Positions 4,016 through 9,929 of a stretch of 25,558 bases of DNA are shown in pieces. The DNA is from a virus. A program made the translations under genes and the position numbers. The number at the start of each line of letters is the position of its first letter. The first letter of the stretch is position 1. The stretch lies in the IMG/VR virus record IMGVR_UViG_3300032242_001590, positions 1-25,558 of that record; one strand, written 5' to 3'. The notes under the pieces are model-generated. The model ran no database searches. It saw only the letters and a program-made list of their open reading frames with translations, and was not told the origin of the DNA.

Positions 4016-4663
4016 TCATGCCGTTTTTGCGGCCGCCCCGTCGACCAGGGCCTGAATTTTCTGATAGTATTTCTCGCGGGCCTTGAGAGTCTTGGCGTTT
4101 TTCAACCCATACACGGCCCCCGTGGCGTCAGAATAGATGCGGAAATACTCTTCGGATACATGGGCGCCTTTCATGGAGTTAACCAGCGCCAGAACGTCCC
4201 GGAAACGCGCGCCCTGGATGCGGGCCGCTTCCGATACTTTCGCCCCGTAGCGCACGCGGCCGGACTCGACCACGCGCTCACTCCAGGCCGCCAGGCCCGC
4301 CCCATGATTCTTACCTCCACAAGCACAATCACAATTCGGGCCGATCGCTTGAGTACAGCGCCCGTCGCAGTCACAAACGGCATCAGTACGCACCCAGGTA
4401 TAGCCGGACACGCGCCCCAGGTACTCAAAGGACTCGCCCCCGCATCCACAAACGAGATCACCATGGGCGGCATTACCCGGCACTGTCACGGGCGTCAAAC
4501 AGTCATTACACCGAAAGTAATGCGCCCGCTGAGAGGACGCCACGCCCACGAACGTCAGGCCAGCCTTTACTTTGCCGGCGGCAACCAGGGCGGCAGCCAT
4601 CTCAGGGGTTGGGGTTGTATCGATCAAAAGGGATTCACGCGTCAGTCTATTGTCGAGATTCAT
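4016..4663 (-). CDS. cysteine-rich protein with zinc-binding clusters, 215 aa
   Basis: I chose the ATG at 4663, which follows GGAACAAATC. An earlier in-frame ATG at 4705 would lie at or before the predicted start of transcription. The middle of the protein holds CNDC, CGCGGE, CDCDGRC and then NCDCACGGKNHG, about twelve cysteines between residues 50 and 120. The CxCDGRC...GPNCDCxCGGKNHG segment is one I recall from uncharacterised phage and actinobacterial proteins. The cysteine pairs suggest two or more zinc sites. The C-terminal part is helical and basic (KTLKAREKYYQKIQ). It may bind nucleic acid, but no activity is known. Confidence 0.76.
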   Translation of the reverse strand: MNLDNRLTRESLLIDTTPTPEMAAALVAAGKVKAGLTFVGVASSQRAHYFRCNDCLTPVTVPGNAAHGDLVCGCGGESFEYLGRVSGYTWVRTDAVCDCDGRCTQAIGPNCDCACGGKNHGAGLAAWSERVVESGRVRYGAKVSEAARIQGARFRDVLALVNSMKGAHVSEEYFRIYSDATGAVYGLKNAKTLKAREKYYQKIQALVDGAAAKTA

Positions 4664-4706
4664 GATTTGTTCCATTTCTATCGGGCCGTGGTTGGCTTGA
4701 TTCACT

Positions 4707-4736
4707 AAGATTATATCACGGCACCATAGAATGCAA
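4707..4736 (-). promoter_or_regulatory. leftward promoter, copy 2
   Basis: On the minus strand TTGCAT (4731-4736) is followed after 15 bp by an extended -10, TGATATAAT (-10 hexamer at 4710-4715). It shares CCGTGATATAATCTT and the same 15-bp spacing with the copy at 3932-3961. Transcription would start near 4703 and lead into the gene at 4016-4663. Confidence 0.75.
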
Positions 4737-4848
4737 CCCCTAACCGCAAATTATTTTCAGGCCCCCCCATTCCCTTGCAATCCCCGGCAGCGCCCCACGC
4801 CCCCCAGGGCACAACCAGGGCAACCAATTCACCAACCCCCTCAACAAG

Positions 4849-4877
4849 TTAAGATAACTTCATAATCTCTATATTAT
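4849..4877 (+). promoter_or_regulatory. possible rightward promoter for the structured RNA
   Basis: TTAAGA (4849-4854), then 17 bp, then TATTAT (4872-4877) fits a sigma-70-type promoter with four matches in each hexamer to TTGACA and TATAAT or better. It would start transcription close to 4884, where the first helix of the candidate RNA begins. Bases 4737-4848 upstream are C-rich and hold nothing else that I can recognise. Confidence 0.4.
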
Positions 4878-4883
4878 TAAACC

Positions 4884-5719
4884 CCGTTAACAGTTCAGCG
4901 AATACACCGAAACAACCCCAGAACGGCCAGATTGAGTAGCAGAAGAGGGTAAGGAATGCATAACCCGGCAAAGAAAAACAAACTACCCGCTGGATACTCT
5001 CCGGGGGACGCAGGGCTAAACCCGCGCAAGTGTGCGTAACCCTTCGGGAATATAGCTTATGCAAGGGGCATGCCGCAACGGATCGAGTCGAGGGATTCAA
5101 CCGGACAAGTTCTATGCCAAGATCCGCGTAGTGGGAAAAAAAAATTGAAACTGGAAGAGAAGCACTTCCGCAAATCGCTACTATTTTTGTCCACTTGACT
5201 AATCCGCTCAGGATCTCCTAGATTTTGATGATTTGGTAAGTACCTGGGGGGAGTTTTTCTTATGAGGGGAGGGGGTCCGATCAGATCCTCTTCTCGGACT
5301 TCCAATCGGTTTAGATTCGAGCCAGAGGACAGTTGAAGGGGATTCTTAGATACAATTCTAGAATAGATTGGTGATCCCTTCACCTAGTCCTCTAACGATC
5401 AAGTTCCCATTCTTCCAATTCGGATGAGTTCTCGCCTTCGTTACAGTGGTAGTCCTAGATTCCGGTTGCAACGTCTAGGTGTGTTCCCTCGCTCACGCGC
5501 TTTGGCCCTGCGGTATATGGGAAGAACGATTATCTTCCCTGGGGTGCAATCCCCACTTTACCCGCGACAGACAGGATGCTCCTACCAGAGCATATGAACT
5601 AAAACTTTTTCTTGATTAACTTTGCCTGATTCGGCTAGGATCTTCCCAAGTAAGAGTTTTTCGTCCAAAAAAACTATATCTCAAAAGGGCGGTCGGTTGC
5701 AATAACTGATCGCCTTTTT
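4884..5719 (+). ncRNA. candidate large structured non-coding RNA (about 840 nt)
   Basis: No credible gene lies in this stretch, but the + strand is full of complementary segments. Examples: CCGTT/AACGG (4884/4922); CGCA-AGTG-TGCG (5025-5036); a CC(UUCG)GG tetraloop (5041-5048); CGGATC/GATCCG (5079/5121); AGTGG..AAAAA/TTTTT..CCACT (5130/5184-5195) enclosing GGAAG/CTTCC; AGGATCT/AGATCCT (5210/5283) crossing GTCCGA/TCGGAC (5275/5294); AGAGGAC/GTCCTCT (5324/5387) enclosing TGAAGGG/CCCTTCA; CCTAGA/TCTAGG (5454/5474); GGGAAGA/TCTTCCC (5519/5533); TGGGG/CCCCA (5540/5551); ATGCTC/GAGCAT (5576/5588); and a 14-bp helix with one mismatch (5601-5614 with 5647-5660). An intrinsic terminator closes it. Size, position next to the terminase genes and complexity recall GOLLD and ROOL RNAs of phages, but I cannot show membership. 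Promoter and 5' end are uncertain. Confidence 0.7.
5688..5719 (+). terminator. intrinsic terminator of the structured RNA
   Basis: GGCGGTCGGTT (5688-5698) pairs along its whole length with AACTGATCGCC (5704-5714), nine Watson-Crick pairs and two G-T pairs, around a GCAAT loop, and is followed directly by TTTTTC. It is a textbook rightward terminator. As no protein gene lies upstream on this strand, it marks the 3' end of a non-coding transcript. Confidence 0.85.
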
Positions 5720-5752
5720 CATTTCTTTTACTCTACGAATTATTTGCATCTC

Positions 5753-5768
5753 ACGGATTAACGGATTA
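5753..5768 (+). repeat. tandem ACGGATTA repeat before the terminase genes
   Basis: ACGGATTA occurs twice in tandem (5753-5760, 5761-5768), ten bases before the start of the small terminase gene. Short direct repeats here could be part of a packaging (pac or cos) site or a regulator site; they may also arise by chance. No clear promoter is visible between 5720 and 5778. Confidence 0.35.
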
Positions 5769-5778
5769 ACTTTGTTTT

Positions 5779-6213
5779 ATGCCCAATCCGAATCCAAGCC
5801 CGGCAACACGATGGAAGAAAGGTCAGTCAGGGAATCCGTCCGGCCCTGCGCTCCAGGACAAGGCTGTAACGGCTTTGAAGCGGATGGGTGCCCAAGAGCT
5901 TGCTGAGACGTGCGAAATGATCCTGAAGGCAAACAGAGCGGAATTAGCGGCCATCCTGGAAGACCCGAACACTTCCATGCTCCAAGTGAATCTGATATCC
6001 GCAATTCTTGCCGACACACAGAAGGGATTGACCTATACGCTGGACAAGCTCTTGGAGCGCGTGGTCGGTAAACCCAAAGAGCGGATCGAGCTTTCTGGTG
6101 ACCCGGACAACCCAATGACCATGCAAGCCGTTCAAGTTCTAATCTCTCTGCCGGACAATGGTCGAGCAGAACCGTCAACCGTGATATTCGATACCCCGAA
6201 GGACAAGGGATGA
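5779..6213 (+). CDS. terS: terminase small subunit (DUF5681-like N-terminus)
   Basis: Probable small terminase, which recognises the packaging site and hands DNA to the large subunit. The N-terminus has RWKKGQSGNPSGPA (residues 11-24), the KxGQSGNPxGRP signature of DUF5681 proteins found before large terminase genes. Residues 27-100 are helical, as expected for the DNA-binding and oligomerisation parts. Length (144 aa) is normal for a small terminase. The ribosome site is weak (GGA about 15 bases upstream). The gene comes just after the RNA terminator and is followed by overlapping genes leading to the large terminase, which supports the role. Confidence 0.78.
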   Translation: MPNPNPSPATRWKKGQSGNPSGPALQDKAVTALKRMGAQELAETCEMILKANRAELAAILEDPNTSMLQVNLISAILADTQKGLTYTLDKLLERVVGKPKERIELSGDPDNPMTMQAVQVLISLPDNGRAEPSTVIFDTPKDKG

Positions 6214-6299
6214 CGGTTTATTGTCCGATCTGTCAAAAAGAGTATTTGTACATTGAATGGAAGGTATGGGTGATTTGTGAATCCTGTGCCGAAAGCTAA
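6210..6299 (+). CDS. 29-aa zinc-ribbon-like microprotein between the terminase genes
   Basis: The ATG at 6210 overlaps the TGA of the small terminase (ATGA) and follows GAAGGACAAGGG, a good ribosome site. The product contains CPIC at residues 5-8 and CESC at residues 23-26, a pair of CxxC knuckles with a tryptophan-rich stretch between (YIEWKVW), which looks like a miniature zinc ribbon. It overlaps the start of the large terminase by 23 bases in another frame, so it may couple translation of the two subunits. It is very short, and no family is recognised. Confidence 0.55.
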   Translation: MTVYCPICQKEYLYIEWKVWVICESCAES

Positions 6300-7641
6300 T
6301 AAGATCCTGGCGCCTCAACCGGGGCCGCAGTCCATGTTCTTATCCTCAAAGGCCGATATTGCTTTCTACGGTGGCGCCGCAGGTGCCGGTAAATCCTTTG
6401 CCCTGCTCCTGGAACCTTTACGGCACTTCAACAATTCCCGGTTCGGTGGGGTCATCTTTCGGCGAACATCCGTCCAGGTCCGGAACCAAGGCGGTCTCTG
6501 GGATGAATCGGCCGACATCTACACGCCCCTGGGAGCGGTCCCCCGGCAATCCTACTTGGAATGGTTGTTTCCATCTGGTGGAAAGCTGAAATTCGCCCAT
6601 CTTGAGACCGAACAGAACATTTATGACTGGCAAGGGGCGCAGATCGCTTACATCGGGTTTGATGAGGTGACCCATTTCACCGAGAAACAGTTTTTCTATA
6701 TGTTGTCCCGGAACCGGTCCATGTCCGGAATCCCCGGATACATTCGCGCGACCTGTAACCCGGACACGGATTCCTGGGTGCGTCGGTTTATTGACTGGTA
6801 CATTGATGAACAAGGGTATCCCATTGCCGAACGGGCCGGGGTTCTTCGCTGGTTTATTCGTGTCGAGGATGAAATCCGGTGGGGAAACTCTAAACAAGAG
6901 CTTATGGACAAATACGGCGACGACGTTTTGCCGAAATCCATGACCTTTATCCCCGGAAAGATTTACGACAACAAACTATTGCTTGAAAAAGATCCGTCTT
7001 ATTTGTCCTCGCTTAAAGCATTGTCTCGGGTGGAGCGCGCGCGTCTCCTGGAAGGCAATTGGAACGTTCGATCTGCCGCTGGTCAATACTTTCAGCGCAC
7101 TTGGTTTCAAGTGATTGATGCTTTGCCCGCAAGACCAATCATGACCATTCGATATTGGGACCGGGCCGCTACAAAACCGTCAGAAACCAATCGAGATCCG
7201 GATTATACCGTGGGGCTAAAATTGAATCGGTACGAGGACGGTACCTGGGTGGTATCGGATATTGTTCGAGTCCGTGAATCCCCGCTCAACGTTGAGAAGG
7301 TTGTTCGGAATACCGCAACGCAGGACGGGTTTGGGTGCATTGTGGCAATCGAACAAGATCCCGGATCGGCGGGCGTTGCGGATGCGGATAACTATGTCCG
7401 ATTGTTGGCGGGATTCAACATCCGCGTGCGGAAACCCTCGAAAGACAAGGTGACCCGCGCGCTTCCCGTGTCCGCGCAGTGTGAACACGGAAACGTCAAG
7501 CTCCTCAAAGGGTCATGGAATGATTCGTTTTTAAATGAACTGGAAAATTTTCCGGATGCAAGTCATGATGACCAAGTGGACGCATTTTCGGGGGCATTCA
7601 ATGAACTGGCAACAGGCTTTTCGATCCTCGATGTTCTCTAA
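6277..7641 (+). CDS. terL: terminase large subunit
   Basis: The DNA-packaging motor: an ATPase that pumps DNA into the prohead and a nuclease that cuts the concatemer. The N-terminal half has Walker A GGAAGAGKS (residues 32-40) and Walker B IAYIGFDE (D129, E130). The C-terminal half is an RNase H-like nuclease with acidic residues in RYWDRA (D295), IEQDPGS (D361) and SHDDQVDA (D431, D432, D435). Length, 454 aa, is normal. The start is a GTG; the frame upstream of QPGPQSMF matches the family, and the start falls within the microprotein gene. Next gene: portal, nine bases on. Confidence 0.96.
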   Translation: MNPVPKANKILAPQPGPQSMFLSSKADIAFYGGAAGAGKSFALLLEPLRHFNNSRFGGVIFRRTSVQVRNQGGLWDESADIYTPLGAVPRQSYLEWLFPSGGKLKFAHLETEQNIYDWQGAQIAYIGFDEVTHFTEKQFFYMLSRNRSMSGIPGYIRATCNPDTDSWVRRFIDWYIDEQGYPIAERAGVLRWFIRVEDEIRWGNSKQELMDKYGDDVLPKSMTFIPGKIYDNKLLLEKDPSYLSSLKALSRVERARLLEGNWNVRSAAGQYFQRTWFQVIDALPARPIMTIRYWDRAATKPSETNRDPDYTVGLKLNRYEDGTWVVSDIVRVRESPLNVEKVVRNTATQDGFGCIVAIEQDPGSAGVADADNYVRLLAGFNIRVRKPSKDKVTRALPVSAQCEHGNVKLLKGSWNDSFLNELENFPDASHDDQVDAFSGAFNELATGFSILDVL

Positions 7642-7650
7642 GGAGATGAT

Positions 7651-9621
7651 ATGGAAGAAATGAAGAAAAAACGCGGTCGGCCCCGGAAGATTCTGGAAAA
7701 TGCTGCGACCGAAAAAACGGTGGTTGTAAACGGTTTGTCCCAGGCGATTATGGGGTTTACCCCAGGCGGTCCCGGAACTCAGCTTGACCAGACGGACACA
7801 ACCTTTCTCAATAACCGTTGGTACTTGGTTTCCAATATGCGTCCGCTCCTTTCGGAGCTTTACGCGGAACATGGCCTGATTCAAACCGTGGTGAACGTAC
7901 CGGTGGATGACGGGCTTAGGGGCGGGGTTGAAATCCGATCCCGGCAACTGTCTGAAGAAGATTTGGCTAGCCTGGTGAATGTGATTGAGCGGAATGACGA
8001 CATTAACACCGTCGGTCAGGCACTGAAGTGGAACCGTCTTTACGGTGGCGCGGGCGTGGTGATCATTACCGATCAAGATCCAATGACCGAATTTGACCAA
8101 AGCTCAATTACGGCAGATACCCCGCTTGAGTTCCGCGCGGTCGATATGTGGGAATTGTTTTGGGATAAACAAAACGACGAAGCGTATGACCCCACCCTTC
8201 AAGAAACCAAATTCGAGTATTTCTCTTATTACGGAACCAAACTCCACAAATCCCGCGTATTCCGGATGAAGGGCCTTCAGCCACCGTCCTTCATTCGCCC
8301 ACGTCTCCGAGGTTGGGGTCTGTCGGTAGTGGAATCTTTGATTCGGTCGATTAACCAATACTTCAAGACCAACGATTTGTGTTTCGAAGTATTGGATGAA
8401 TTCAAGCTCGACATTTACAAGATCAAGAACTTGACGACCACTCTGTTGTCTGCCCAGGGAACCGCACAAATCCAACAGCGCGTGCAACTGGCAAACCAAC
8501 AGAAGAACTTTCAAAACGCCATCACAATGGATTCCGAGGACGATTACGTTCAAAAGCAACTTTCGTTTTCGGGGATTGCTGAGATTTTGGAGCAGATCCG
8601 GATTCAAATCGCATCCGACCTTCGTATGCCGATCACAAAGATTTTCGGTATCAGCGCGTCCGGGTTCAACTCTGGCGAAGATGATATTGAAAACTATAAC
8701 GCAATGATTGAATCCGAGATTCGGTCAAAATGTAAGTATGACATTCTGAAGGTGATTGAAGTTCGGTGCCAGCAATTGTTTGGATTTGTCCCGGACGATC
8801 TTTCCATTCATTTCAAACCGCTTCGCACCCTGTCTGGGGAGCAAGAAGAGAACGTCAAAACCCAAAAGTTCAACCGCTTGATTGCGGCGAGACAGTCGGG
8901 AGAAATTGACCCAATCGAGTTTCGTAAGTGCATAAACAAAGATGATTTGTTGCCGCTTAAAATGGAAGCTGAAGACGTTTCAATGATTGAAACCGATGAG
9001 GATATGGCGGCAGACGGGAGCGACGAAATCCCAGGCCAGCAAAAGTCATACTCTCGCGCCGCAACCCTGGAATCTGAAAAGCGGTACGGCCGGATGATGA
9101 ATTATTTCACTGAAGCCGACCATATCAAGATCCCATTCGAGAAGGACAAGCATCCCAGGGACGCGGGTGGGGTTTTCAGAACTCACGGGAAGACTTCAAA
9201 AGAAGTAAAAGAGCGTGACCAATATGCGCGCCGGAAAGAGAAGCTCAAGATGGACGGTAAAGTGTATGTTGTCGTTTGGCGTGAGTCCGATAAAGGCGAA
9301 AAGGCCATCGTCATCAAACAAATGGCACCATCTGCCAGGGACAAGGTAAAAGCGCACTTCGGGAAGGGATATTCGGTTGAAAGCTATTCCGAAAAACCTT
9401 CTTTCGAAGAAGGCCACATCCGCAAGCATGAAAACGACATTATGCCAGAAGAAGCACAAACCGTTTTGGAAGACTTGACCAAGGCGTCGATTCAGAATCC
9501 TGGCGATGTTGATGAGGCGACCTGGGAAAAGGCTAAAGAGGCGTGCATTAAAGAATACGGGAAGATCAAATATCCCGTGGTCATGACGATTTACAAAGCG
9601 ATGATGAAAGGAAAGAAATGA
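7651..9621 (+). CDS. portal protein (DUF1073 type) with C-terminal extension
   Basis: Forms the dodecameric ring at one capsid vertex through which DNA passes. The start has a strong AAGGAG six bases upstream. After a basic leader (KKKRGRPRK) the DUF1073-type core runs to about residue 460, with LYGGAGVVII, RVFRMKG and GISASGFNSGEDDIENYN as typical blocks. Residues 466-656 are extra: a KHPRDAGGVFRTH segment near 501, a lysine-rich alpha/beta part, and a tail WEKAKEACIKEYGKIKYP that resembles C-terminal modules seen in other phage head proteins. The usual core is about 430-480 aa, so this is a fusion. Some databases label DUF1073 proteins as Acb1 anti-CBASS proteins; the HxT pair of that enzyme is not visible. 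Confidence 0.93.
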   Translation: MEEMKKKRGRPRKILENAATEKTVVVNGLSQAIMGFTPGGPGTQLDQTDTTFLNNRWYLVSNMRPLLSELYAEHGLIQTVVNVPVDDGLRGGVEIRSRQLSEEDLASLVNVIERNDDINTVGQALKWNRLYGGAGVVIITDQDPMTEFDQSSITADTPLEFRAVDMWELFWDKQNDEAYDPTLQETKFEYFSYYGTKLHKSRVFRMKGLQPPSFIRPRLRGWGLSVVESLIRSINQYFKTNDLCFEVLDEFKLDIYKIKNLTTTLLSAQGTAQIQQRVQLANQQKNFQNAITMDSEDDYVQKQLSFSGIAEILEQIRIQIASDLRMPITKIFGISASGFNSGEDDIENYNAMIESEIRSKCKYDILKVIEVRCQQLFGFVPDDLSIHFKPLRTLSGEQEENVKTQKFNRLIAARQSGEIDPIEFRKCINKDDLLPLKMEAEDVSMIETDEDMAADGSDEIPGQQKSYSRAATLESEKRYGRMMNYFTEADHIKIPFEKDKHPRDAGGVFRTHGKTSKEVKERDQYARRKEKLKMDGKVYVVVWRESDKGEKAIVIKQMAPSARDKVKAHFGKGYSVESYSEKPSFEEGHIRKHENDIMPEEAQTVLEDLTKASIQNPGDVDEATWEKAKEACIKEYGKIKYPVVMTIYKAMMKGKK

Positions 9622-9929
9622 TGAACTGGCAACCCGGTATTACCCTGGAAGAAATGGAACGTGAGGTAATTATTACCGCTCTTCGGTTTTATCAATGGAA
9701 CCGCACCCGCACTGCGGACGCACTTGCCGTGTCGGTTCGGACCATTCAGAACAAGATCGCGCTTTATCTGGAACAAGAATTCATTCAAAAGTCTGAATTT
9801 GAAAAGATCAAACCAGAACCAGAGATCGAACCGGAACCCGAACCAGAACCGGAACCAGAAGCCGTTATGCGTCGACAGATGGATGCGGCTAAACGCAAAC
9901 TCATTCTTCGGGATCGCCGCGAGGGATGA
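9618..9929 (+). CDS. Fis-type helix-turn-helix protein with EP-repeat linker, 103 aa
   Basis: The N-terminal half (LEEMEREVIITALRFY, then NRTRTADALAVSVRTIQNKI, residues 10-47) matches the Fis/NtrC C-terminal helix-turn-helix (HTH_8), which binds DNA as a dimer. It is followed by a Glu-Pro repeat tract (residues 65-82, coded by tandem GAACCN hexamers at 9812-9861) and a basic helix (MDAAKRKLILRDRREG). The start at 9618 overlaps the portal stop; a second ATG at 9621 is possible, and GGAAAG lies upstream. A DNA-binding protein inside a virion operon is uncommon: it may control late transcription, package with DNA, or dock to the portal. Fold confident, role open. Confidence 0.85.
   Translation: MMNWQPGITLEEMEREVIITALRFYQWNRTRTADALAVSVRTIQNKIALYLEQEFIQKSEFEKIKPEPEIEPEPEPEPEPEAVMRRQMDAAKRKLILRDRREG

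Follow-up and report, generated by a model that had tools for sequence, protein, structure and literature searches.

What is encoded in the gap that separates the early from the late genes of this phage? The 25,558 bases analysed here (the window) make up a linear IMG/VR virus entry and come from a contractile-tailed freshwater phage. Leftward early genes (approximately 0.4-4.7 kb) are followed by a gene-free gap and then by the rightward genes terS, terL, portal, head, sheath, baseplate and tail-fibre. A preliminary description had proposed that positions 4884-5719 specify a large structured RNA, either a new member of the GOLLD or ROOL families or a new class. As it had also stated, there is no credible gene between the leftward ORF, which ends at 4705, and terS, which starts at 5779; tRNA genes and members of Rfam families are absent from the whole window. 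The comparisons described below, made at the level of sequence, indicate that the gap is real and that strong selection acts on it as a folded RNA. Genes in the window use Shine-Dalgarno sites, and terS lacks a ribosome-binding site of its own. Just upstream of the gap, positions 4750-4850 are strongly C-rich and C-skewed (GC skew of about -0.49 over 4700-4899), a feature that is not kept in the homologue introduced next. A small Fis-like helix-turn-helix ORF carrying an EPEPEPEPEPE repeat lies behind the portal gene (9618-9929).

A homologous region ahead of terS in a related phage, which the preliminary description had asked for, was found. This sole true homologue is a gap likewise located ahead of terS on the phage contig L005 (JAIXYK010000064.1; G001:C54; 44,175 bp). 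The ends of the contig overlap by approximately 265 bp, and it is thus a near-complete phage genome; the differences within the overlap are a strain mixture. The contig is filed in a pond 'Bacteroidetes' MAG. Shine-Dalgarno sites are unusual for Bacteroidetes, and since the related genes of the window have them, the binning or the host of the L005 phage is doubtful. Elsewhere on this contig, locus L038 includes a single tRNA-Asn with the unusual anticodon ATT (7731-7815), which on a circular genome would be approximately 11 kb away from the RNA, and an FkbM-type methyltransferase gene (361-1068) that adjoins the tail-fibre region.

The two TerL proteins are 92% identical, and the terL genes agree at 52% of third positions and at only 36% of fourfold-degenerate sites (75/206). 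The latter value is near random, and neutral sites are therefore close to saturation. Against this background the gap is conserved far above neutral in a series of blocks (Table 1), the first of which (5042-5112) includes the hairpin TATGC-AAGGG-GCATG as well as one strand of a possible long-range helix. The terminator (84%) and the region between it and terS (5720-5778; 85%) are conserved as well. The boundaries originally assigned to the RNA stand in part: selection is demonstrable from approximately 5042 to 5719, and placing the 5' end near 4884 depends on a single, weak match to a promoter.

Table 1. Features of the gap and its surroundings in window coordinates, with changes and identities relative to L005
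Feature	Position	Strand	Observation
Possible early leftward promoter TTGCA..TATAAT	4714..4740	-	Read from sequence
Possible RNA promoter TTAAGA-17-TATTAT	4849..4877	+	Predicted start ~4884; 9/12 consensus, chance level
Variable 5' part of presumed transcript	4884..5041	+	42% identity; transcript membership inferred
Conserved 5' block	5042..5112	+	69% identity, ungapped
GCCGCA, possible 5' strand of long-range closing helix	5072..5077	+	Pairs with UGCGGU 5509-5514
Second conserved block (CTTCCGCAAATC...ACTTGACTAAT)	5156..5206	+	82% identity
Conserved core of RNA	5291..5597	+	93.7% identity; 300 aligned bases, 19 substitutions
Long helix PL, 10-nt bulge UAGAUUGGUG	5324..5393	+	z -4.0 in window and L005
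Pseudoknot 5' strand UGGUAG	5447..5452	+	T5447/A5587 to G/C
Hairpin H1 (CCUAGA/UCUAGG), 14-nt loop, palindrome GUUGCAAC	5454..5479	+	Stem invariant
Possible irregular helix closing H2 and H3 (CCU..CU..CGCG / CGCG..AG..AGG)	5487..5575	+	RNAalifold consensus; invariant
Hairpin H2, 7 bp, loop ACGAUUA	5519..5539	+	G5520-C5538 to A-U
Hairpin H3, 5 bp, loop UGCAAU	5540..5555	+	G5543-C5552 to A-U
Hairpin H4, 6 bp, loop CUACCA	5576..5593	+	C5579-G5590 to U-A
Sequence-variable linker, long hairpin possible in both phages	5598..5682	+	47% identity
Intrinsic terminator	5683..5719	+	17 stem pairs, then T-rich tail
Possible late promoter TTGCAT-17-TAACTT	5743..5778	+	Predicted start on terS ATG; weak consensus match
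Probable terS	5779..6213	+	DUF5681-like N-terminus (below Pfam cutoff); phrog_15125; position ahead of terL
terL	6277..7641	+	phrog_979, E 3e-169

Folding energy contributes little to the argument. The region 4884-5719 folds with a z-score of -4.5 on the + strand and -1.85 on the - strand relative to shuffled sequences; when the terminator is removed the score is unremarkable (approximately -1.95), and 4884-5200 alone folds no better than shuffles (z +0.26). Because the terminator carries most of the signal, we set the z-score aside as main evidence. The energetic reasoning that first drew attention to this locus is consequently weak, and the case rests on comparison with the homologue.

The strongest support comes from a 149-nucleotide 3' module (5445-5593) that aligns with L005 without gaps. 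Of its 11 differences, eight make up four exactly compensatory pairs, one in each of hairpins H2, H3 and H4 and one in a pseudoknot, so that the covariation called for in a homologue is present. The remaining three fall at positions that are unpaired in the model, and no pair is broken. When the same substitutions were placed at random (400,000 trials), at least three hairpin pairs were obtained in 77 trials and all four, including the pseudoknot, in a single trial. Hairpins H2-H4 are already present when the window sequence is folded alone. The pseudoknot takes up the entire six-nucleotide loop of H4 (5582-5587), which pairs with 5447-5452. It was discovered by scanning, and we therefore applied a look-elsewhere control, in which 5 of 1500 column-shuffles gave any such match over six loops. 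At least one pseudoknot, as had been claimed, is thus confirmed, and it carries a compensatory change from U-A to G-C. Compensatory changes above chance, together with reading frames that are broken between the two phages (see below), identify the element as a structured non-coding RNA.

The proposal that the gap contains a dozen complementary pairs holds for the long helix PL and for H2, H3 and H4, although a count of pairs is itself weak evidence. A UUCG tetraloop noted near 5048 did not survive, as it is closed by just two pairs, is unstable, and is absent in L005. Several additional pairings are candidates. The strands 5072-5077 and 5509-5514 are paired in the RNAalifold consensus of 5036-5600 and were also recovered by a loop scan; this pairing would cross the possible helix 5487/5563. 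The same scan found that GATTGG (5366-5371) in the bulge of PL is complementary to CCAATC (5302-5307), and the loop of H1 is complementary to that of the terminator. All of these candidates, some of which cross or exclude one another, are invariant in both phages and thus lie beyond the reach of a covariation test. The palindrome in the H1 loop reads UUGCAA in L005. The hairpin that is possible in the variable linker has z-scores of -1.5 in the window and -6.7 in L005.

A rho-independent terminator had been described at the end of the gap, and an intrinsic terminator is indeed conserved in shape in L005, where one change is compensatory and three others preserve pairs as G-U. The consensus energy of this terminator is -18.7 kcal/mol on the + strand versus -5.0 kcal/mol on the - strand. 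Consensus folding of the core is equal on both strands, with no preference for +, and we infer the + strand assignment from the terminator.

Promoters are less clearly defined. The candidate at 4849-4877 is the top scorer upstream of the RNA, but it is weak and not conserved. In L005 a weaker candidate, CTTACA-16-TACTAT, lies approximately 147 nucleotides before the conserved block, compared with 158 nucleotides in the window. Beyond the terminator, the promoter-like site ahead of terS has identical hexamers and spacing in L005, with the predicted start likewise on the terS ATG. A short direct repeat, GATTAACGGATTAAC, at 5755-5769 adjoins the terS start and is kept in L005; it could be a site for a regulator or for TerS. 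A Bacteroidetes-type promoter ahead of terS was set aside, since one match was found with 0.9 expected and the genes use Shine-Dalgarno sites. On the other side of the gap, a conserved promoter-like TTGCA..TATAAT faces leftward immediately ahead of the early operon GTG (4705), within a segment (4707-4757) that matches L005 275-324 at 82%. Together with the site at terS, it suggests that early and late transcripts may have short leaders or be leaderless.

The RNA appears rare. It is absent before terS in L002 and L003, whose TerL proteins are 75% identical, and is therefore dispensable in this phage group. The other 900-bp gap in L002/L003 (2190-3117) gave no match to the RNA and folds without signal on the + strand; L002 also has a probable HNH homing-endonuclease ORF (4489-5004) that separates terS from terL, whereas in the window a short gap lies between these two genes. 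No further copy was found by BLASTN against phage and plasmid records or among terL and portal relatives in IMG/VR, and five DNA patterns searched against IMG/VR gave either zero matches or sequences that on checking were non-homologues. Approximately 700 sampled Bacteroidota genomes yielded no third member, and an RNA covariance model run over 24 loci and 295 genomes recovered the two known members only; a single match among the 295 genomes (E 0.003) was taken as chance. In the nearest cultured terL relatives, phages of Methanoculleus and Rhizobium, genes rather than a gap precede terL. The class is accordingly rare in what was searched, with two members, although records closely related to the genome of the window may have been excluded from some searches.

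The main rival to a stand-alone RNA is a cis-acting leader of the late operon, in which the fold, together with a phage or host factor, would control transcription past the terminator at 5719 and into terS. Such control would resemble that of lambda Q/6S RNA or HK022 put RNA, where a much shorter structured RNA with a terminator stands ahead of late genes. The location fits, since the RNA immediately precedes the late operon and shares its orientation, and its strong terminator is 60 nucleotides ahead of terS, for which, as noted, a ribosome-binding site is lacking. The H1 loop and the terminator, whose complementarity is invariant, may offer an alternative antiterminator pairing. However, no such pairing was found to covary with the stem of the terminator, and known antitermination sites are far smaller than the core, which ends approximately 85 nucleotides before the terminator, with a variable linker between them. 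In addition, the window RNA differs from the lambda and HK022 systems in having, in both phages, a conserved promoter-like site downstream of the terminator, with which readthrough would be unnecessary. Because this site is conserved between the terminator and terS, the late genes need not depend on the promoter of the RNA. The site suggests, at the modest strength of such promoter matches, that the late genes have their own promoter and that the RNA stands alone rather than serving as a leader. We regard regulation in cis as unlikely.

Conservation as DNA is less probable still. A packaging (pac) region, or an origin of replication that forms hairpins in single strands, could well sit at the junction of the leftward early and rightward late modules, adjoining terS, and both the compensatory changes and the equal folding of the core on the two strands would also fit extruded single-stranded DNA. 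In contrast, the T-rich tail is on the + strand, and three of the changes in the terminator preserve its stem only through G-U pairs on that strand. A search for iterons and direct repeats found none, and the 300-nucleotide core with its 94% identity is, to our knowledge, larger than all known pac sites.

Membership in a known family was assessed with cmscan against all 4227 Rfam families, at the gathering threshold and at relaxed E-values of up to 5-10; chance matches to terminator-like hairpins were the only result, and HEARO, OLE, raiA, and the group I and II introns gave no match. Models for GOLLD (RF02032) and ROOL (RF03087) were also scored directly with E up to 10. GOLLD, for which there was no positive control, had no match in the window, and ROOL had none in the window or in G001, although the ROOL model recovers the known copy on L. 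salivarius plasmid pMP118 (E 1.1e-29). A highly diverged member of either family would share the similar size, phage host, variable 5' and conserved 3' regions, pseudoknot and loop complementarity (PMC12286853), yet these searches and the lack of a tRNA in the window make that reading very improbable, and the proposal of a new GOLLD or ROOL member was not borne out. Because no catalogued RNA family matches, the RNA probably represents a new class.

The least tenable alternative, a strongly constrained gene for a small protein, is refuted for the core: ORFs of up to 108 amino acids can be written in the window, but the longest frames within 5150-5600 differ between the window and L005, single- and double-base gaps break every frame, substitutions are blind to codon position, and the search in L005 for a conserved protein frame at the same place found none.

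We therefore favour, with moderate confidence, a stand-alone structured non-coding RNA of approximately 680-840 nucleotides, encoded on the + strand and ending at 5719, that would act in trans as a folded molecule. The RNA would be made from its own promoter during infection, with a presumed 5' end near 4884. Its 3' core (5291-5597) would fold into a compact domain of several helices, held in place by the pseudoknot of the H4 loop, leaving the 5' part and the pre-terminator linker free to vary, as in GOLLD. Antisense action finds little to pair with, as 13-nucleotide matches are absent in the window and number one in C54, within the non-conserved linker. The RNA would most likely fold into a stable particle, either as a single copy or as several copies joined by loop-loop contacts, and this particle could serve the phage as a scaffold or as a binder of a protein or RNA partner. 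More tentatively, several copies might assemble through loop-loop contacts around the time of packaging into an RNA particle unrelated in sequence to GOLLD and ROOL. Contacts that could be used in such an assembly are the palindromic H1 loop and the H4 loop with 5447-5452.

If this reading is correct, large structured RNAs arose in phages more than once. The proposal of a large structured non-coding RNA of a new class is supported, with two members. In both, the RNA keeps its place next to the packaging genes of a small phage genome, and at the DNA level it is more strongly conserved than they are. Because this place by terS and terL is fixed, a role late in infection or in packaging could be tested directly.

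Among known phage RNAs, the phi29 packaging RNA (174 nucleotides) works with a gp16-type motor rather than with TerS/TerL. The window RNA, compared with it via Rfam only, resembles it as a phage RNA near packaging functions for which loop-loop contacts are possible. GOLLD assembles as an RNA-only 14-mer cage and ROOL as an octameric one; these structures are solved and the functions are unknown, and an unrelated RNA of like kind would be an independent case. Vibrio phage ICP1 carries an abundant non-coding RNA of approximately 800 nucleotides in an ORF-less gap with no nearby tRNA, belonging to no known family (PMC7567579), and unclassified phage RNAs of this size are thus known; the window RNA plausibly acts in a manner comparable to GOLLD, ROOL and the ICP1 RNA. 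By description, the window RNA is similar to the ICP1 RNA in length, ORF-less location, absence of a tRNA neighbour, and unclassified status. The ICP1 RNA differs in that it adjoins lysis genes and has RNA-seq support. GOLLD and ROOL are large phage RNAs that are often near tRNA islands and form RNA-only cages; GOLLD is phage-borne, exceeds 800 nucleotides, and is rich in hairpins and loop contacts, with a well conserved 3' region and a less conserved 5' region, while ROOL is a phage or prophage RNA of approximately 600 nucleotides with pseudoknots and a variable linker (PMC12286853). The window RNA differs from both in lacking a covariance-model match, and it has no tRNA neighbour (an array is usual, but not universal, for GOLLD) and no tRNA island as for ROOL, from which it also differs in genome place. 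Its likeness to them is confined to size, phage host, an independent terminator, a loop pseudoknot, and a conserved 3' core with a variable 5' part, which for the comparison with GOLLD amounts to 94% identity over 5291-5597 versus 42% over 4884-5041. The window RNA is probably a new and rare class of large phage RNA that is akin to GOLLD and ROOL and a member of neither.
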